Below, piece by piece: positions 2,057 to 12,915 of a DNA stretch of 64,000 nt. The number at the start of each line of letters is the position of its first letter. The stretch's first letter is position 1. The stretch lies in NCBI RefSeq assembly GCF_013410775.1, contig NZ_JACCFH010000001.1, positions 3,472,001 to 3,536,000 on the forward strand, given 5' to 3'. Position numbers and translations under genes: made by a program. Origin of the DNA: Sphaerotilus montanus (GTDB lineage: Bacteria; Pseudomonadota; Gammaproteobacteria; Burkholderiales; Burkholderiaceae_C). The notes under the pieces were generated by a model. It was not told the DNA's origin. It was given only the letters and a program-made list of their open reading frames with translations, and ran no database searches.

Positions 2057-2322
2057 CGACGACGCTCTACGCCGCCTTCGAAGCCACCGTGATCGCCGCG
2101 GCCTGCGGCTGGGCGCTGTGGCACACCGCCACGCGCGTGCTCAAGCTGAAGCTCGGGCGCCGCGCGGGGGCGTCCGCGTCTTCGTCTGCGGGTGGGTGCG
2201 GGAGCGGCTGCGGGGGATGCAGCGCTTCATCCGGGGCTGGCAACGCTTGCGGAAGCGGTGCCAGCCAACCGGAGCGGATCAGCGTGGTGGCTGCGCCTTC
2301 AACCAGGCGTAAGTCCGGCTGA
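2053..2322 (+). CDS. FeoB-associated Cys-rich small membrane protein (DUF6587-like)
   Basis: This 89-residue protein starts with an ATG that overlaps the feoB stop codon (ATGA), so it is the third gene of the feo operon. Residues about 5-25 form one hydrophobic helix, followed by a basic stretch (KLKLGRR) and a Ser/Gly/Cys-rich region containing CGSGCGGC and a further Cys. Small Cys-rich single-span proteins after feoB are a known group (FeoB-associated Cys-rich membrane protein, DUF6587). Their role is not settled; they may replace FeoC or handle Fe(II) at the membrane. The last 44 bases overlap, tail to tail, the end of the minus-strand epimerase gene. Confidence 0.75.
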   Translation: MTTTLYAAFEATVIAAACGWALWHTATRVLKLKLGRRAGASASSSAGGCGSGCGGCSASSGAGNACGSGASQPERISVVAAPSTRRKSG

Positions 2323-3285
2323 GGCCTTCGGGGGTCGGCACGCGCTGGGTCCAGCCGATGCGCTTGAGGCCCTCGTTGCTGTAGCGGATCGGCGTGTACA
2401 TCGACTGGACGACGTAAGGCGTGAAGACCGCGGGCATCTGGCCCTTGGACGCCTTGTTGTACGCCACCAGCTTCTTCGACAGCCACAGGAACAGCCCGAA
2501 CGACAGCGGGATGACGCGCATCTTCTGCACGTTCTTCAGGTAGCCATCAAGGTACTGGCGGCAAGTCGGGATGTTGTCGTCGGTGACGGCAAACGCACTG
2601 CCGCTCGGCGCATGGACCGCCGCCCGCGCCACCGCATCGGCGCAGTTCTCGACATAGGTCAGCGGCAGCAGCGCGCCGTTGCCCAGGCTCGCGAACAGCC
2701 CCATCGCCTTCAGCCCGACCCGCGGCGACAGCGCGCCACCGCCCGGTCCGTAGATCACGCCGGGGCGCAGGATCACGGTCTCGAAGCCGTACTGCGCCGC
2801 GAACTCCATGAACATGTGTTCCTGGCGTGTCTTGGCGTAGCCGTAGGGGCCCTTGTCCACGCCGACCGGCTCGATCGGGGTGTCCTCGCCCAGCGTGTCG
2901 CCTGGCTTCATCCCGTCGGTCTTGTAGACGGCGAACGAGCTGATCAGCGTGATGCGCTGGATGCCGGTCTTGCCACACGCCTCGAAGACGTTGCGGCTGC
3001 CCATGACGGTGTTGGCGAACATGTCGGCCGCCGCGCCCTTCATTCCGGCCGCCGCATGGATCACGCAGTCCACGCCCTGCAGCATCGCGTCGAAGGAGCC
3101 GCGTGCGAGCAGGTTGGCCGCGGCGGTCTCGATCTGCGCCTGCGGGAACTCCTTGACCAGCGACTCGATGAAGCCGGCCGGAGCCTTGTTGCGGAAGTGC
3201 AGCCGCAGGTCGAACTGACCCTGCATCAGGAGGCTGCGCGCGATCTGCTTGCCGAGGAAACCGCCGGCGCCGGTGACGAGGATCT

Positions 3286-3289
<4 letters not shown>
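2279..3289 (-). CDS. NAD-dependent epimerase/dehydratase (extended SDR)
   Basis: The 336-residue protein is an extended short-chain dehydrogenase with a Rossmann fold. It begins MKILVTGAGGFLG (GxxGxxG at residues 7-13), has a YxxxK catalytic pair at Y149/K153 and an LRPGVIYGPGGG segment typical of nucleotide-sugar epimerases. The substrate cannot be read from the sequence; UDP- or GDP-sugars are likely from the context. Its ATG overlaps the stop of the upstream Gfo/Idh gene (ATGA), so both are made together. It is the last gene of a minus-strand set that also holds a GT2 glycosyltransferase, a deacetylase-like protein and an O-antigen-ligase-type protein. Confidence 0.85.
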
Positions 3290-4398
<1,109 letters not shown>

Positions 4399-4444
4399 GG
4401 CATGCACTCCCGGTGGTTCTTCAATTTGTCGCAATTCGTCAGAT

Positions 4445-5659
4445 TCAGCGGCTCGTGCGGCCCCAGCTGCCGCTGGCCCGCCCGGTCGAAAAGCGCCAGG
4501 ACGCCACCAGGAACGCCCAGTTCAGCGCAAACAGGAAGGCCGCCAGCTTGACCAGCGTCGGCAGCTTCACGCCGCGGCTCGTCAGTCGCCAGCCCGCCCA
4601 GGCCAGCACGTAGCTCGTTGCCTGCGCCAGCGCGTAGACCGCCCAGCCCGCCGACTGCTGCTGCACCGCCAGCACGACCGAGGCGGCCAGGGCCAGCAGC
4701 AGCAGGTGCGGCGCGGTCCAGCGCAGCACCTTGTGCGAGACATAGGCGAAGGCGGTGGCCAGCGAGGTGCGTGTCAGGTACTGCGGGTGGCGGGCGAGCG
4801 CCTGGAAGTTGCCGATGCCGATCCGGATGCGGCGCTTGACCTCTTCGCCGATCTGCTCGGGGGTGTCTTCCTCGGCCCAGGCTTTGGGTTCGTAGACGAG
4901 GCGGTGCCCGGCGGCCGACACGTTCATCGCGACGCAGAAGTCGTCGCAGATCGTGTCCGGGCGCAGCGGCTGCCACAAGGTGCGGCGGATGGCGTAGATC
5001 GCACCGTTCGCGCCCAGCAGCGCGCCGATGCGGGCCTCGAAGAACTTCAGGAACTGCTCGATGCGCCAGTACAGGCTGTCCTGGTTGTCGCCGCTGGCGT
5101 TGCCCAGCAGGCGCAGCTCCCCGGTGACGCCACCGACCTTCGGGTCCTGGAAACGCGCCACCAGCCGCTTCAGCGCGCTGCGTTCGAAGTAGGTGTTGGC
5201 GTCCGAGAACACGACGATCGGCTCGACCGTGCGCGACACCAGGTCGTTGAGCACGCTGGCCTTGCCGCGGTTGACCTCGAAGGGCAGGGCGACGACGCGC
5301 GGCTCGTCCTTGAACTGCGCCATCAGTTCGGCCGTGCGGTCGCGGCTGCCGTCGGAGCCGATGTAGGCGCGCAACTTGTCGGCCGGGTAGTCGAGTGCCA
5401 GCAGGTTCTCGATGCGCGAGACGATGTGCGTCTCTTCGTTGTACGCCGAGATCACCACGGCCACCGGCGGCCAGTCGGGTTCGGCCTCGGTGTGGCCGGC
5501 GTCGATGCGGCGGTCGCGCTTGCGAAAGACGAAGCCGACATCGCGCAGCCCCTGGGCCACCGATCCGACGACGAACAGCACCACCGGGTAGAGCGCGTAG
5601 GAGTAGAGGACCGCGACGACACCCCCGATGGCGACGACGGCCAGCAGCGTGTGCAGCAC
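4445..5659 (-). CDS. Membrane glycosyltransferase family 2
   Basis: A 404-residue processive-type GT2 enzyme. There is one N-terminal hydrophobic helix (about 5-35), then the GT-A domain with the nucleotide-binding SAYNEE motif at 71-76, DGSRDRT at 103-109, a DxD-like DAN at 153-155, DDFCV near 238 (possible catalytic acceptor-site Asp) and a RRxRIGxGN segment in place of QxxRW. Two to three C-terminal membrane helices follow. Such enzymes transfer sugars to a growing chain or lipid carrier at the inner membrane. It starts 4 bases after the stop of the upstream deacetylase-like gene, which points to joint expression. Confidence 0.86.
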   Translation of the reverse strand: MLHTLLAVVAIGGVVAVLYSYALYPVVLFVVGSVAQGLRDVGFVFRKRDRRIDAGHTEAEPDWPPVAVVISAYNEETHIVSRIENLLALDYPADKLRAYIGSDGSRDRTAELMAQFKDEPRVVALPFEVNRGKASVLNDLVSRTVEPIVVFSDANTYFERSALKRLVARFQDPKVGGVTGELRLLGNASGDNQDSLYWRIEQFLKFFEARIGALLGANGAIYAIRRTLWQPLRPDTICDDFCVAMNVSAAGHRLVYEPKAWAEEDTPEQIGEEVKRRIRIGIGNFQALARHPQYLTRTSLATAFAYVSHKVLRWTAPHLLLLALAASVVLAVQQQSAGWAVYALAQATSYVLAWAGWRLTSRGVKLPTLVKLAAFLFALNWAFLVASWRFSTGRASGSWGRTSR

Positions 5660-5663
5660 CGGC

Positions 5664-6851
5664 TCAGCCCTTCGCCGCTGCGTTCGTGGTGTCCCGGTAG
5701 CCCGGACGCGGGATCACCAGATCGCGGTACTGTCCCGGCTCGCCCGGCAGGTTCTGCTCGGCGGCCTTGACGATGTTATACATCTCGCGGGCGCTGACGT
5801 AGTGCAGCTTCCAGTCCTTGCCGTCGTTGTACCTGGCGTGCAGGTGCTCGTAGCACTGGCGCATCGGCTCGCCCAGCAGCGTGTCCATGTCGCGCTCTTG
5901 CGTGCCGTGGGTGTGGATCTTGACGAAGATCCATTCCGGCTTGCCTTCGACGTGGATGCCGGTCTCGATCCAGGTGTCCACCCGGTCCGGTGTCGGCGGG
6001 CAACTGGTGCGGATGTCCGAGTTCTCGATGCGCGGGATGATGCCGAACTTGCGGTCGGTCCACTTGAAGCCGAGCGGGCCCTGGATCAGCATCAGGTCGC
6101 CCGACGCCTGGCCGCCGACCTTCACGCGCACGCCGGTGTCGTGCGACTTGCAGGCGTGCGGGTCGTCCTTGGCGTAGTAGATCTTGTTGATGGTCGAGGT
6201 CTGGCACGGGTCCGGCGAGGCCGGGAAGGTGTAGTCGACGTAGCAGCCTTCTTCGCGCAGCACGATCAGCTCGTTGTTGACGCCGCAGCCATAGCCATCC
6301 GGGTGCGAGTTGTCGAGCGCCCAGTTGCCGTGGATGAAGGCCCAGCGTGGCTGCTTCGTGACCGGGTCGACCGGCAGCGCGTCGTGGCGATCGACCAGCA
6401 GTTGTGTGAAGCGGCGCAGCTTCTCGCGCAGGCCCGCCTCGGTGTCCTTGTCGTGGTGCAGGTGGATCTCGATCTCGCCCAGCCCCATGCGGCAGATCTC
6501 GACCAGCGGGTCGAGGTGCTCGGGGCGGTACTCTTCTTCAGGGTAGAAGAAGCTGTGGATCGGTCCGCGGCCGTCCGCGTCCTTGAACGGGGCGCACAGG
6601 GCGGGGTACTCCTGGCGCCAGCGGGCCACGCGCTTGCATTCGGTGGCGTAGTCCGGCTGCTTCCACATCGGCTCGTAATGGTCGACGAAGCAGAACATCA
6701 CGTGCTTCGTCACCCCGGCCGGGGCGGGGGCGCGCCAGTCCTGCTTCAGGTAACTGGCCAGCCAGGTCTGGATATTGCGCTGGCGGATGAACAGCGCCAC
6801 GACGCCAGCGGTGGCCGCAAGCAGCACGAGAAGGACAAGCACGACACTCAT
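5664..6851 (-). CDS. Membrane-anchored polysaccharide deacetylase-like protein (hypothetical)
   Basis: I do not recognise a named family with certainty. The 395-residue protein has an N-terminal hydrophobic anchor (residues 2-22), then a soluble domain with Asp/His-rich motifs that look metal-binding: FVDHYEP at 55-61, HSFFYPEEEY at 99-108, HLHHDKD at 130-136, HGNWALDN at 174-181 and VDYTFPASPD at 205-214. The order Asp-His, His-x-His-His-Asp and His-Gly-Asn is reminiscent of NodB-type carbohydrate esterases, so a membrane-tethered periplasmic deacetylase or hydrolase is plausible. It lies 4 bases upstream of the GT2 gene. An AAAAGG site precedes its ATG. Confidence 0.6.
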   Translation of the reverse strand: MSVVLVLLVLLAATAGVVALFIRQRNIQTWLASYLKQDWRAPAPAGVTKHVMFCFVDHYEPMWKQPDYATECKRVARWRQEYPALCAPFKDADGRGPIHSFFYPEEEYRPEHLDPLVEICRMGLGEIEIHLHHDKDTEAGLREKLRRFTQLLVDRHDALPVDPVTKQPRWAFIHGNWALDNSHPDGYGCGVNNELIVLREEGCYVDYTFPASPDPCQTSTINKIYYAKDDPHACKSHDTGVRVKVGGQASGDLMLIQGPLGFKWTDRKFGIIPRIENSDIRTSCPPTPDRVDTWIETGIHVEGKPEWIFVKIHTHGTQERDMDTLLGEPMRQCYEHLHARYNDGKDWKLHYVSAREMYNIVKAAEQNLPGEPGQYRDLVIPRPGYRDTTNAAAKG

Positions 6852-7014: not shown

Positions 7015-8388
7015 TCATCCGCCGTTGCCGAGGTAGTGGGAAACTACAAAGGCTTTAACTGCAAAAAGTGTGAAAGCCATCATCAGGAATGTACTTTTTA
7101 CCCACTTGATGTTGTGCACGCGCTGATAAGCGGGTGAATCCCGGTCGGTCATGCCAGGTGATTGCGAGGCGCAATACCAGGCAGAAACGCACAGTGCCAG
7201 CAGAAAGTACAGCACCGGCTGGTAGGTGCGTGACAGGAACCATGCGCAGACCAGAAATCCGACCAGTGAATTGCGCAGCAATGCCACCATCTGGCGGCTC
7301 GGATTGCGGCTTGGCATGCAGTCGATGACGGTGGACAAGCTCTTGTAGGTCAGCACGATCATGGCGATCCACAGGAAATAACCCACGAGTCCCAATTCTG
7401 CAAAACAGAGAACGAAGGAATTGTGGGCTGTCAGATGGTGGTGGTCGGTGAAATTGCCGTATCCGGCGCCGAATATGGGGCGCCATTTCAGCAGTTCGAG
7501 TCCCACGGACCAGGCCTCGATGCGCTCGCCCGCCGACTGCTCCTTGGACGAGAAGCCGCGCCCGCCGACTGCGCTGAGCGCGATGAAACCGGTGCCGCCG
7601 AGCGCCATCAGCACCGTGGTGCGGGTCGTGCCCAGCCAGTCCCGCACGACGAAGAACAGCAGCGAGGCGGCTCCCAGCAACGCACCGCGCGACTGGCTGA
7701 GGAAGATGGCGTAGCCCATGACAGCGCCCGGCGCGAGCACGAAGAGCAGATTGCGCAGGTGCTTGCCGGCCTGCCAGGCGGCCCACAGCAATGGCAGGCA
7801 CATCACCAGCACCTGCGAGAAGTCGTTCGGGTCGCTCAGGAAACCCTGCCCGCGCACCCGCCAGAGGTACCAGCCCGTGGTGTCCTGGGCAGGAATTTCC
7901 GATGCGGCGGAGGGCGGCGCACGGCTCGGGTCATCGTCCTCGTGGCTCGGTGCGGTCTGGCGCAGCACCAGTTGCGAGGCGTACTGGCCGGTGTGGAAGG
8001 CCTGGATGCCGAAGCCGGCCGCGAACAGCATGGACAGCACCACCGCAGCACAGGTCTTCTTCAGGCGTTCCAGCGTGGTCACGTTCAGCGCCACCAGCAC
8101 GAACAGCATCGACGAGGTGCTGAAATCGTTCATCGCGGTGACCGCGCCACCCGCCCAGCCGTTGAACAGCAGCGACAAGCCCAGCGTGGCCATGAAGGCG
8201 AACAGCAGCTTGAAGTCGATGGCCCGGGCGGCCACCTGCTTGCGCACCATCGCGCGGCTGGCCGCCAGCACAAAACCGAGCGTCCAGAGCACCAGCATCG
8301 GCCGGAATTCCGCAATTTCGGGCACGAACAATTCGATCGGCCGGAAAAAGCTCAGGAACACATACAGCAGGAATACCGCGAAGCTCAT
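7015..8388 (-). CDS. O-antigen ligase/polymerase family membrane protein (Wzy/WaaL-like)
   Basis: A 457-residue polytopic membrane protein with about ten to twelve hydrophobic segments and a large periplasmic loop. Near residues 325-345 lies the HNSFVLCFAELG motif that marks the O-antigen ligase (Wzy_C) family, where the His is functionally important. Such proteins polymerise or ligate polysaccharide repeats, or O-glycosylate proteins. I start it at the ATG at 8388; a longer frame to 8460 adds a non-hydrophobic stretch. The last 100 bases are visibly richer in A+T than the neighbours. It is the first gene of the minus-strand polysaccharide set and is divergent from the GT4 gene. Confidence 0.82.
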   Translation of the reverse strand: MSFAVFLLYVFLSFFRPIELFVPEIAEFRPMLVLWTLGFVLAASRAMVRKQVAARAIDFKLLFAFMATLGLSLLFNGWAGGAVTAMNDFSTSSMLFVLVALNVTTLERLKKTCAAVVLSMLFAAGFGIQAFHTGQYASQLVLRQTAPSHEDDDPSRAPPSAASEIPAQDTTGWYLWRVRGQGFLSDPNDFSQVLVMCLPLLWAAWQAGKHLRNLLFVLAPGAVMGYAIFLSQSRGALLGAASLLFFVVRDWLGTTRTTVLMALGGTGFIALSAVGGRGFSSKEQSAGERIEAWSVGLELLKWRPIFGAGYGNFTDHHHLTAHNSFVLCFAELGLVGYFLWIAMIVLTYKSLSTVIDCMPSRNPSRQMVALLRNSLVGFLVCAWFLSRTYQPVLYFLLALCVSAWYCASQSPGMTDRDSPAYQRVHNIKWVKSTFLMMAFTLFAVKAFVVSHYLGNGG

Positions 8389-8611
8389 TGTCGATGACCG
8401 ATGTTCTGGCGCAAAGGCTCGATCGTACCGGCTTCTGCATGCAATCCGCGTGACGAACACCCCGGCAGACAGGGGAGTCGCCTTAATCTGGAATTACTTG
8501 GTACCGCGGGCTGTTGCACAAACATCGACGCCGTGTCGTTCGGCACTGCGTGCCGGGGTGTGGCCCGCGTACCATCACGGCCGCGTGAATACGGAAAACC
8601 AACCCCCCTCC

Positions 8612-9817
8612 ATGAACAAGCCTGCTGTCCTCCCTCCCTTGCGCCGTGTGCTGTACCACCACCGTACCCAGGGCAAGGCCGTCGAAGGCGTCCACATCCG
8701 CGGCATCACCGACGCGTTGCGCGCCGAAGGGGTGACGGTCGACATCATCTCGCTGCCGGGTGCCGACCCGTATGCGAGCCCCAAGGCGCTGAGCCCGACC
8801 AAGCAGGCGCGTCCGTGGATGAAATGGGTCACCAGCCTGCCGGAGCCGCTGTTCGAGCTGGTCGAGCTGGCCTACAACGCGGTGTCCGGCTGGCGCATCC
8901 GCGAGTACCTGAGCGCCCACAAGGACGTGGACCTGATCTACGAGCGCTACTCCCTGTACATGTTCGTTGCCGTGGTGATCGGCCGGGCGCGCAAGATCCC
9001 GGTGATCCTGGAGGTCAACGACTCGGCCACTGTCTACCGCGTGCGCCCGCTGTTCTTCCTGAAGCTGGCGACGATGATCGAGCGCTGGGTGTTCCGGCGT
9101 GCCAACGGACTGGTGTTCGTCTCCGGAGCCTTCCGGGACCGCGTGACCAAGGCGCACGGCCACATCGCGCCGTCGCTGGTCTCGCACAACGCGGCCAACA
9201 TCGACAAGTTCAGCTTCACGCCCGAGCAGCGCGCCCAGACCCGCGTCAAGTGGGGGCTGAAGGACGGCGAAGTGGTGTGCGGCTACCTGGGCGCCTTCGT
9301 GCCGTGGCACGCGATCGACCAGTTCGTCTACAAGATCGCCGACCGCCTGAAGGCCAACCCGCACCTGAAGCTGTTGCTGGTCGGGGACGGCGCGACCTTC
9401 CCGACCGTGCAGGAGTTCGTGACGAAGAACGGCCTGGAGCAGCAGGTGATCCTGACCGGCCGCGTCTCGCACGACGAGGTGCCGGGCCTGCTGGCGGCGA
9501 TGGACATGGCGGTGCTGCCGAGTGCGGGTGACTACACCTCGCCGGTCAAGCTGTTCGAGTTCATGGCCTGCGGCATCGCGCCGATCGCGCCGGACTTCAT
9601 CCCGATCAAGGAAGTGGTCAAGGAAAACGAGACGGGCTGGCTGTTCAAGGCCGGTGACCTGGAGAGCGCGGTCGGCATGGTCCTGCAGCGCAGCCGTGAC
9701 CTGCCCGCGCTGCAGAAGATCGGCCAGGCCGCGCGCGCCTACATCGCCCGCGAGCGCCAGTGGCGCAACAACATCCTGGCGCTGGTCGACTTCCGCACCC
9801 AGGTCAAGGACAACTGA
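8612..9817 (+). CDS. Glycosyltransferase family 4
   Basis: A 401-residue GT-B fold enzyme. The N-terminal half has the loosely conserved acceptor domain; the C-terminal half carries the GT4 signatures LLLVGDG, a VILTGRV motif and the SPVKLFEFMACG segment, where EFMACG corresponds to the E-x7-E nucleotide-sugar site. No signal peptide or membrane helix is seen. It likely adds a sugar in the cytoplasm to the lipid-linked repeat. The start is uncertain: a GTG at 8585 would add nine residues, and neither start has a strong ribosome site. An acyltransferase follows 12 bases downstream. Confidence 0.88.
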   Translation: MNKPAVLPPLRRVLYHHRTQGKAVEGVHIRGITDALRAEGVTVDIISLPGADPYASPKALSPTKQARPWMKWVTSLPEPLFELVELAYNAVSGWRIREYLSAHKDVDLIYERYSLYMFVAVVIGRARKIPVILEVNDSATVYRVRPLFFLKLATMIERWVFRRANGLVFVSGAFRDRVTKAHGHIAPSLVSHNAANIDKFSFTPEQRAQTRVKWGLKDGEVVCGYLGAFVPWHAIDQFVYKIADRLKANPHLKLLLVGDGATFPTVQEFVTKNGLEQQVILTGRVSHDEVPGLLAAMDMAVLPSAGDYTSPVKLFEFMACGIAPIAPDFIPIKEVVKENETGWLFKAGDLESAVGMVLQRSRDLPALQKIGQAARAYIARERQWRNNILALVDFRTQVKDN

Positions 9818-9829
9818 GGCGCACCGGCG

Positions 9830-10354
9830 ATGAAACTGCTGCTGTCCGACCTGCGTGCCAAGCAGGTGCTCTATGGCGATGGCGGCCCGCCCGTCTCGCT
9901 GCTCAAGGTCCTGCTGGCTGACGGCACGCTGGCCAATGCGCTCTACCGGCTGCAGGCCTGGCTGGCCCGCTGCGGGCTGGCACCGCTGGCGCTGCTGCCG
10001 CACATCCTGAACAAGTGGCTCAACGGCTGCGTGATCGGGGTGAAGGCGCAGTTCGGGCCCGGGTTCGTGCTGATCCATCCGGTGGGCGTGGTGATCAACT
10101 CCAGCGTGCGCGGCGGGCGCAACGTGTGGCTGGAGAGCGGGGTCGTCATCGGCGAGAACCGCGGTGCCTTTCCCCGGCTGGGCGACGACATCTTCGTCGG
10201 CTCGGGCGCGAAGATCATCGGTGGCGTGCAGGTGGGCGACGGGGCGCGGGTCGGGGCCAATGCCGTGGTCCTGCACGATGTGCCGCCTGGCCACACCGCG
10301 CTGGGCATCCCGGCCCGCAACCGCCCGCCGTCCCCGGTGTCCTCGAATGGCTGA
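9830..10354 (+). CDS. Hexapeptide-repeat acyltransferase (serine acetyltransferase-like)
   Basis: A 174-residue protein of the CysE/LpxA-fold group. The first 65 residues are helical; after that come hexapeptide repeats of the left-handed beta helix (GPGFVLIHPVGVVIN, VRGGRNVWLESGVVIG, VGDGARVGANAVV) and a LGIPAR-type C-terminal motif. The HPVG His fits the catalytic His of CysE-type acetyltransferases. Since it directly follows the GT4 gene it more likely acetylates a sugar of the polysaccharide than serine for cysteine synthesis, though the latter cannot be excluded. The C-terminal tail (RNRPPSPVSSNG) is short and polar. Confidence 0.82.
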   Translation: MKLLLSDLRAKQVLYGDGGPPVSLLKVLLADGTLANALYRLQAWLARCGLAPLALLPHILNKWLNGCVIGVKAQFGPGFVLIHPVGVVINSSVRGGRNVWLESGVVIGENRGAFPRLGDDIFVGSGAKIIGGVQVGDGARVGANAVVLHDVPPGHTALGIPARNRPPSPVSSNG

Positions 10355-11598: not shown

Positions 11599-12915
11599 AT
11601 GACGATTCCTCCCGCTGTCGATCTGTCCACCTTGCTGGCGTCCCTGGCGCGGCCTTCGTCACTGATCGAGCTGGCCGTCCTGGCGGGCGTGCTGCTGGCG
11701 AGCTGGCTGCTGGTGTGGGGACTGCGCCGCAGCCTGCAGGATCCGCCGGACCACCGCTCGATCTGGTTCGGTGCCCATCTGGTCGATGGAGTGCTGTTTC
11801 CAGTGCTGGCGCTGGCGCTGGCGTATGTGGCGCGCCGTGTGCTGCTGGATCTCGGGCAGCCGCTGGCCGTGTTCCGGCTCGCCATTCCGGTGCTGCTGTC
11901 GCTGGTGGCGATCCGGCTGAGCGTGCGGGTGCTGCGGCTGGCGTTCCCGGCGTCGGCGCTGGTGCGCGCGGTGGAGCGCACGATCTCGTGGTTCGCCTGG
12001 CTGGGCATGGTGCTCTGGGTGACCGGGCTGCTGCCTGCCGTGCTCGACGAGATGGATGACATCCAGTGGAAGATCGGTGCACACCCGATCACCTTGCGCA
12101 ACGTGATCGAGGGCACGCTGTCGGCGGGCTTCGTGCTGGTGGTGGCGCTGTGGATCTCGGCGGCGCTGGAGGCGCGGCTGCTGGCGGGGGCGGTCGGGGC
12201 CCAGCTGTCGCTGCGCAAGGTGGCGGCCAATGTGCTGCGCGCCGCGCTGTTGTCCATCGGGCTGCTGATGGCGCTGTCGGGCGTGGGCATCGATCTGACG
12301 GCGCTCTCGGTGCTGGGCGGTGCGCTCGGCGTGGGCATCGGCCTGGGCCTGCAGAAGCTCGCGGCCAACTACGTCAGCGGCTTCGTGATCCTGGCCGAGC
12401 GGGCGCTGCGCATCGGCGACATGGTGAAGGTCGCCGATTTCGAGGGCGTGATCACCGACATCACCACGCGCTACACGGTGATCCGCGCCCCGTCCGGGCG
12501 CGAGGCCATCGTGCCCAACGAGATCCTCGTCACCACGGCCGTGCAGACGATGTCGCTGGCCGATCGGAACGTGCTCCTCAGCACGGTGGTCGGGGTGGAC
12601 TATGCGACCGATGTCGCGGCGCTGCGGCAGCGGCTGATCGAGGCGATTGCCGCCGTGCCACGTGTTCTGCAGGAGCCCGGTCCGGCGGCGCAGCTGACGG
12701 GTTTCGGCGCCGATGCGCTGGAGTTGTCACTGTATTTCTGGATCTCGGATCCCGAGAACGGCCAGGGCAATGTGCGCTCCGAAGTCAATCTGGCCATCCT
12801 CGACCTGCTGCGGCGCGAGGGGATCGGCATCCCGTATCCGCAGCGGGTCGTGCACCTGCCGGCCCAGCCCCCGGTGAACGCGTTCAAGGCGCCTTCAGCG
12901 GAATCTGCACCGTGA
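11599..12915 (+). CDS. Mechanosensitive ion channel, MscS family
   Basis: A 438-residue inner-membrane channel that opens under membrane tension. There are about five hydrophobic segments (near 22-40, 62-82, 90-108, 128-150 and 175-195) before the pore helix region, where the GGALGVGIGLGLQKLAANYVSGF sequence matches the TM3 glycine/alanine face plus the conserved LQ-x-ANYVSG motif. The beta domain (RIGDMVKV, GVITDITTRYTVIR, VPNE) and the alpha/beta C-terminal vestibule follow. It is longer than E. coli MscS (286 residues) because of the extra N-terminal helices. The last 32 bases overlap, tail to tail, the histidine kinase gene. Confidence 0.92.
   Translation: MTIPPAVDLSTLLASLARPSSLIELAVLAGVLLASWLLVWGLRRSLQDPPDHRSIWFGAHLVDGVLFPVLALALAYVARRVLLDLGQPLAVFRLAIPVLLSLVAIRLSVRVLRLAFPASALVRAVERTISWFAWLGMVLWVTGLLPAVLDEMDDIQWKIGAHPITLRNVIEGTLSAGFVLVVALWISAALEARLLAGAVGAQLSLRKVAANVLRAALLSIGLLMALSGVGIDLTALSVLGGALGVGIGLGLQKLAANYVSGFVILAERALRIGDMVKVADFEGVITDITTRYTVIRAPSGREAIVPNEILVTTAVQTMSLADRNVLLSTVVGVDYATDVAALRQRLIEAIAAVPRVLQEPGPAAQLTGFGADALELSLYFWISDPENGQGNVRSEVNLAILDLLRREGIGIPYPQRVVHLPAQPPVNAFKAPSAESAP

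Follow-up and report, generated by a model that had tools for sequence, protein, structure and literature searches.

A conserved NodB-like protein family in exopolysaccharide loci, tentatively read as a cytoplasmic-face deacylase

The gene under study lies in a 64,000-nucleotide stretch of Sphaerotilus montanus DNA (the window) and encodes a protein, here called X, that belongs to a real conserved family. It is no chance open reading frame, because a search through 84,980 species genomes matched 456 stretches, of which 353 encode relatives, and 27 columns of the family alignment (106 rows) are invariant across members reaching down to 36% identity with the window protein. The family has no Pfam or NCBIfam model and is predicted to carry the NodB barrel with motifs 1 and 2 rewritten. 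Our preferred reading, which we hold only tentatively, is that X represents an undescribed NodB-like family of exopolysaccharide (EPS) loci and would act at the cytoplasmic face as a metal-dependent deacylase of lipid-linked or nascent glycan. In many bacterial polymers, charge and stickiness depend on deacylation. If X is active, it would widen the chemistry of the NodB barrel and would point to an editing step in glycan assembly. The gene, its parts and its neighbours are listed in Table 1.

Table 1. Features of the X gene and its surroundings (window positions).
Feature	Position	Strand	Basis
CDS of protein X (NodB-like), 395 aa from ATG	5664..6851	-	ORF listing, translation, relatives
N-terminal hydrophobic helix, predicted membrane anchor, residues 2-24	6780..6848	-	Model helix and charge pattern
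Helix, residues 27-36, right behind the anchor, conserved W30	6744..6773	-	Model; W30 nearly invariant
FCFVDHYEP, residues 53-61, end of barrel strand 1	6669..6695	-	Model, alignment; place of CE4 motif 1 by anchors
GEIEIHLHHDKDT, residues 125-137	6441..6479	-	Model, alignment; put at CE4 motif 2 from its order and spacing
HGNWALDN, residues 174-181	6309..6332	-	Model, alignment
CYVDYTFP, residues 203-210	6222..6245	-	Model, alignment
KIHTHG, residues 311-316	5904..5921	-	Model, alignment; close to CE4 motif 5 by weak anchor
GT2 glycosyltransferase, downstream of X	4445..5659	-	Pfam; top NCBIfam model PgaC/IcaA, below cut-off
Gfo/Idh/MocA oxidoreductase, start codon uncertain	3286..4434	-	Pfam/NCBIfam profiles
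NAD-dependent epimerase/dehydratase; 4-base overlap with the Gfo/Idh/MocA gene	2279..3289	-	Profiles, homologue survey
Wzy_C / O-antigen ligase-like protein; lies upstream of X, uncertain start	7015..8460	-	Profiles
GT4 glycosyltransferase, divergent, start uncertain	8645..9817	+	Profiles
Hexapeptide acetyltransferase; serine O-acetyltransferase/EpsC-like, below cut-off	9830..10354	+	Profiles
MscS-type mechanosensitive channel gene, just past the cluster	11599..12915	+	Profiles

The family and its gene neighbourhood

Searches with X returned no family from Pfam or PHROGs at E ≤ 5 and none from NCBIfam at E ≤ 1, the ArnD model and the XrtA system polysaccharide deacetylase model TIGR03006 included. 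When 8 and 20 family members were searched against Pfam and NCBIfam, only scattered rows appeared (best E 0.013); PF01522 was absent among the matches of both sets at E ≤ 10, and ArnD was absent among the 11 chance NCBIfam rows from the 20 members. The PF01522 profile itself detects five genes elsewhere in the source genome. The GH38 profile PF01074 matched neither X (E ≤ 5) nor the 20 members (E ≤ 10), and in Pfam PF03065 likewise matched neither. Sequence searches of the PDB at E ≤ 10 gave 0, 1 and 3 rows, all unrelated-looking, with a best E of 0.17. The earlier note had proposed an HHpred-type check against carbohydrate esterase family 4 (CE4). HHalign of the 106-row alignment against four NodB-type sets (8, 9, 8 and 3 sequences) was null, and so were the comparisons with GH38 (3 sequences), PuuE-like proteins (3) and the single protein L108, with probabilities of 0.1–0.3% and E of 0.2–0.82 across these seven sets, whose labels were assigned in this analysis. 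L108 (source genome C1, near 71664) is a second non-standard deacetylase-like protein, with PF01522 over positions 47–122 only and the motif NWHIDDRK. Two pattern scans of viral contigs matched 2 and 53 stretches with no relative of X among them, and a structure search of BFVD gave one match at E ≤ 0.001, which is unnamed. No description of the family was found in the (mainly open) literature, where it has no name to search by. The suspicion that the family is not well described was thus borne out by the lack of a Pfam, NCBIfam or PHROGs model.

The closest relatives in the genome scan were found in two Sphaerotilus MAGs (94–95% protein identity). With the source genome included each time, X is present in 11 of 60 related genomes sampled, 11/398 genomes of the phylum sample and 17/369 of the class sample. 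Loci were kept for the best 80 of the 353 relatives, and the hosts of these were Burkholderiales, Lysobacter, Luteimonas, Dyella, Luteibacter, Rhodanobacter and related taxa, Thalassotalea, Colwellia and further MAGs of proteobacteria. A further relative, L012, is carried on a planctomycete plasmid (CP151668.1, 27449–28690; identity 49.4%, coverage 83%), sits within a cluster of glycosyltransferase genes and is annotated as 'hypothetical protein', being the sole annotated record of the family that was examined. Its place in a glycosyltransferase block suggests that whole polysaccharide loci have been transferred. The sheath genes of the Sphaerotilus-Leptothrix group are described as poorly understood in the accessible part of PMC13386937. 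X is a candidate EPS gene in this sheath-forming group, though it is missing from three of the 13 genus genomes (G009, G011, G012), the sheath role having been examined by gene presence only in these 13.

The alignment consists of the window protein and 105 relatives. Left out were L054, which has a wrong start, L093 and L109, which are the window gene, and L103, which duplicates L125; further duplicates remain, at least L073/L094, L080/L097 and L086/L111; the HH-suite filter retained 79 rows. Counts out of 106 are therefore somewhat inflated, because some rows are the same gene twice. Ten residues are identical in 106/106 rows, namely D57, H58, H130, H132, H133, D136, E194, D206, K311 and H315. 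E60 is found in 105 rows behind a residue 59 that is Y, F or W, while H313 is found in 97 rows and replaced by Tyr in nine. G175, W177, L179 and N181 are invariant within HGNWALDN, as are C203, D206, T208 and P210 within CYVDYTFP. C203 is accompanied by C189, which is identical in 104/106 rows (window 6222–6287), and the pair may have a disulfide, metal or structural role; a disulfide, if real, would be odd in a cytoplasmic enzyme.

The gap of 4 bases to a GT2 gene, already pointed out in the earlier note, was confirmed by the ORF positions (5664 is the last base of X and 5659 the first of the ORF that follows on this strand) and by Pfam, which identified the neighbour through PF13641 (E 2.7e-18) and PF00535 (E 1.3e-16). 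Its top-scoring NCBIfam model, PgaC/IcaA, reached 99.5 bits at a cut-off of 422.3. The neighbourhood survey covered 81 mutually related loci (L012–L092), some of them with flanks that end at contig edges. Homologues of the window genes (E ≤ 1e-8) were found in 60 loci for Wzy, 54 for GT4, 45 for GT2, 36 for the epimerase, 34 for MocA and 16 for the acetyltransferase, and in two for feoB, the sole unrelated window gene queried. When only the closest queried neighbour up to 600 bases away is counted, GT2 lies directly downstream of X on the same strand in 27 loci, and Wzy, a canonical NodB gene and a same-strand GT4 lie directly upstream in 24, 13 and 12, respectively; no queried neighbour occurred within this distance upstream in 20 loci and downstream in 12. 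Polysaccharide genes thus surround X in most of the 81 loci, in agreement with the polysaccharide operon and the GT2/Wzy co-occurrence claimed beforehand.

Because 13 of the 81 loci already contain an adjacent canonical NodB, the role of X in them is not just that of the deacetylase, which suggests a different sugar, step or reaction for X. Canonical PF01522 genes that share a cluster with X are located at L091:6143-6787, L080:9167-10141, L062:208-1314 and L085:12435-13094, and such a cluster places two NodB-fold proteins in one pathway. Locus L022 has the XrtA-type EPS export genes TIGR03007, TIGR03027 and TIGR03018, all over cut-off, within 8 kb. Among the 60 related genomes, TIGR03007 was over cut-off in 11/11 with X and in 14/49 without it, but this association is weak because 10 of the 11 belong to one genus, whose three genomes without X carry TIGR03007 too. 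In the source genome, the TIGR03007 gene lies approximately 2.4 Mb from X.

Predicted fold and rewritten motifs

The AlphaFold2 model of X (pLDDT 91.7, pTM 0.92, 44-sequence alignment) has the NodB or glycoside hydrolase/deacetylase barrel as its predicted fold, where the earlier note had named an unrelated fold as the outcome that would speak against it. Foldseek against the PDB gave a single match at E ≤ 0.001, the insect chitin deacetylase 5z34 (E 3.8e-5, TM 0.45/0.49), and ranks 2 and 4 were taken by GH38 structures (6rrw, E 1.4e-3; 2wyh, E 7.9e-3). The top entry in VIA-align was 3lm3 (Z 18.0, rmsd 3.4, 264 aligned), an uncharacterised 'putative glycoside hydrolase/deacetylase'. Further entries were 3rxz (Z 17.4, rmsd 3.5, 236 aligned), 3qbu, i.e. 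HP0310 (17.1, 3.3, 235), 5znt (16.8, 4.2, 284), GH57 1k1x (16.2, 3.8, 241), ArnD 8t0j (14.1, 3.1, 212) and GH38 2wyi (13.5, 3.8, 239). CE4 proper (2c1g, 5lgc, 6h8l) scored about 12–13, and NodB-domain structures overall 12–17. The deacetylases that follow 3lm3 form the NodB1.2 group, a subclass that barely retains the NodB motifs according to the available text of PMC10967932. The barrel also occurs in glycosidases (GH38, GH57), in the metal-free PuuE allantoinase and in pseudoenzymes (in part PMC10967932, available text), and a common fold by itself proves no function.

X might instead be a GH38- or GH57-like glycosidase or transglycosylase that trims or edits the glycan through a GH38-like metal site of H58-x-E60, D206 and H313/H315, which we consider unlikely. 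The ranks and scores of 6rrw, 2wyh, 1k1x and 2wyi speak for it, and H58, D206 and H315 are invariant and E60 nearly so, in an order that would fit the H-x-D, Asp and His of the GH38 zinc site. However, the NodB1.2 deacetylases outscore GH38 (Z 15.5–17.4 versus 13.5 or less), neither PF01074 nor PF03065 was matched, the HMM-HMM comparison with the three-sequence GH38 set was null, and the jack bean GH38 anchor lies one residue off the presumed positions of the zinc ligands.

Clustering of the conserved His and Asp in the model had been set as a test beforehand, and these residues were found to gather where the main strands have their C-terminal ends. Residues 48–366 include 107 H/D/E/K/R, of which 18 are conserved, meaning present in 97% or more of the 106 rows. 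Counted by strand positions along the sequence of the model, 11 of these 18 fall within −1 to +5 of the C-terminal end of one of seven strands, compared with 20 of all 107, and one of the 18 falls at the N-terminal end of such a strand. The hypergeometric p of 9e-6 is only indicative, because the seven strands, out of 13 with at least 3 residues, and the ranges around their ends were hand-picked after seeing the alignment.

All four motifs highlighted in the earlier note are present in the translation (FVDHYEP 55–61, HLHHDKD 130–136, HGNWALDN 174–181, VDYTFPASPD 205–214). For their comparison with the CE4 motifs, the first residue pairs of VIA-align ranges were used as anchors and counted on gap-free, on predicted coordinates throughout, with four templates checked against papers. 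In the full model, X 49 pairs with PgdA 266, and X 48 with HP0310 2 and with ArCE4A (5lfz) 45. The piece 53–317 was modelled separately (pLDDT 70.1, pTM 0.72), and its first residue pairs with BmCDA8 57 and with 5lgc 27 (5lfz 50, offset 23). Both anchor runs agree exactly for the nine entries whose full-model range starts at residue 47–51; for 5z34, 3rxz and 7bkf, with ranges starting further upstream, they disagree unless gapped.

On these gap-free anchors, H58 falls on HP0310 Asp12, on PgdA Asp275 and on ArCE4A Asp55, the latter two being given as catalytic bases in the accessible parts of PMC4876506 and PMC5673215. On BmCDA8 it falls on residue 62 (61 from the full-model start), beside Asp63, the metal Asp in the text available from PMC6463723. 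E60 falls on Asp14 of HP0310, for which the accessible part of PMC3084791 gives the metal ligands Asp14, His86 and His90 and the motif 1 D12-x-D14. The distances from H58 to H132 and D136 (74 and 78 residues) are those from Asp12 to His86 and His90 of HP0310, possibly by chance. At the other end, the anchor of T317 on 5lgc 177 would place H313 on ArCE4A His196, the motif-5 His in the same part of PMC5673215, at a point where the pLDDT of the piece is near 58.

CE4 motif 1, T(F/Y)DD, is absent, with FVDHYEP in its place and neither the base nor the metal Asp kept, and motif 2, H(S/T)xxH, is absent as well, X reading HLHHxxD, i.e. H-x-x-x-D. FIHGNW and CYVDYT are candidates for motifs 3 (R(P/x)PY) and 4 (DxxD(W/Y)) by order only, and for motif 5 (LxH) X has KxH313, by an anchor from the low-confidence model end and at a position varying to Tyr as above. 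Membership of CE4 was therefore dropped, and X as modelled is NodB-like, not CE4, because motifs 1 and 2 are not kept and the PF01522 profile is unmatched. Of the claim that X has His/Asp motifs in a NodB-like order, the fold and the strand-end site stood, but the motifs are not the CE4 set, with His at the base Asp and Asp at the end of motif 2.

As the CE4 base and metal Asp positions are occupied by non-Asp residues, X could also be a catalytically dead NodB-fold scaffold or a glycan-binding protein in an assembly complex; dead CE4 relatives exist, and 7bkf is titled a CE4 family pseudoenzyme. We regard this as quite unlikely, since ten H/D/E/K residues kept in every row and the gathering at strand ends exceed the needs of a scaffold. 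Against the deacylase reading itself, there is no link to CE4 or any deacetylase at the level of sequence, H313 is not fully conserved, and the best TM in Foldseek is just that of 5z34.

Predicted membrane helix and orientation

The N-terminal anchor postulated in the earlier note appears in the predicted model as a hydrophobic helix, and 93 of the 106 rows have a hydrophobic segment before residue 55. Of the other 13, seven (L047, L062, L077, L078, L083, L084, L086) have an ATG chosen too late, L124 and L125 are ambiguous, and L115 and L116 (near-identical), L118 and L123 have no such segment in their open frames. K+R were more frequent in the 20 residues after the helix than before it in 93/93 rows (means 4.73 vs 0.13). 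The control of eight secreted CE4 proteins from the source and related genomes, not strictly matched because of its 13-residue core and mostly fewer than 20 following residues, had more K+R before the helix in four cases and ties in four. By the positive-inside rule, the helix is predicted to lie in the inner membrane and the barrel on the cytoplasmic face, because K+R prevail after the helix in all 93 rows and at least four members do without it. This prediction runs counter to the exported enzyme that the earlier note had implied. In L091, the canonical NodB gene in the vicinity of X likewise lacks an evident signal sequence at its start.

Export is common among polysaccharide deacetylases. 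That X is a deacetylase outside the cytoplasm, held by an uncleaved signal anchor and editing the exported polymer, would agree with the hydrophobic helix of most rows, but it is the least probable of the alternatives given the charge asymmetry around that helix, the opposite or tied pattern of the secreted CE4 proteins and the four members without a hydrophobic segment.

Proposed function and comparison with known systems

In the preferred reading as a cytoplasmic-face deacylase, the predicted helix would tether X to the inner membrane and leave the barrel in the cytoplasm, where X may bind one divalent metal, most likely through E60, H132 and D136. H58 would stand in place of the CE4 catalytic base, with H313 and/or H315 as the acid, and an acyl group, most likely N-acetyl, would be hydrolysed from a glycan sugar beside the GT2 enzyme. 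The metal site is a guess, because X departs from CE4 at both Asp positions of motif 1 and has Asp in place of the second His of motif 2. ArnD and NodB deacylate glycan that is lipid-linked or nascent, presumably on the cytoplasmic side of the membrane, and by analogy the substrate of X might be of this kind. Somewhat less probable is the fuller proposal of a new esterase-like family that combines a rebuilt mononuclear Glu-His-Asp metal site and His for the base Asp with cytoplasmic deacylation of lipid-linked EPS intermediates together with a PgaC/NodC-like GT2. If this were true, the glycan would be edited during assembly and not after export.

Among named deacetylases, HP0310/HpPgdA (3QBU) and the NodB1.2 structures (3RXZ, 5Z34, 5ZNT, 1Z7A, 3S6O) reached the highest Z (15.5–17.4). 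HP0310 shares with X the two-residue spacing in motif 1 (D12-x-D14 and H58-x-E60) and the 74/78 spacing to H86/H90 or H132/D136, whereas in X the base Asp is replaced by His, the metal Asp by Glu and the second His by Asp. Unlike HP0310 and NodB1.2, with which it has no detectable sequence similarity, X carries an N-terminal membrane helix. With CE4 proper (PgdA, ArCE4A, PdaC, PgaB, NodB; PF01522) it has the barrel fold and the strand-end site in common, but not the profile match, TFDD of motif 1 or H(S/T)xxH of motif 2. GH38/GH57 and PuuE belong to the same fold class, with GH38 structurally more distant. In the available text of PMC10967932, PuuE is metal-free and has neither Asp of motif 1 nor the second His of motif 2; X, by contrast, still has acidic and His residues around these positions. 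Precedents of NodB-fold deacetylase families outside CE4 are Agd3 (CE18), ChbG and ArnD (in part PMC10967932, available text). As far as its accessible description goes, Agd3 retains the Asp-Asp and HxxxH motifs, where X has V-D-H and H-x-x-x-D.

The membrane-associated deformylase ArnD (8T0J) is similar to X in structure (Z 14.1), but X has no sequence match to it, has an N-terminal helix of its own and is found in EPS loci rather than with lipid A. ArnD presumably acts at the cytoplasmic face and has D-x-D as motif 1. In three of the 81 loci (L091:9113-9907, L063, L067), a gene with a formyltransferase domain (PF00551) lies directly downstream of X; at this frequency the pairing was not used as main evidence, and it recalls the formylation and deformylation by ArnA and ArnD.
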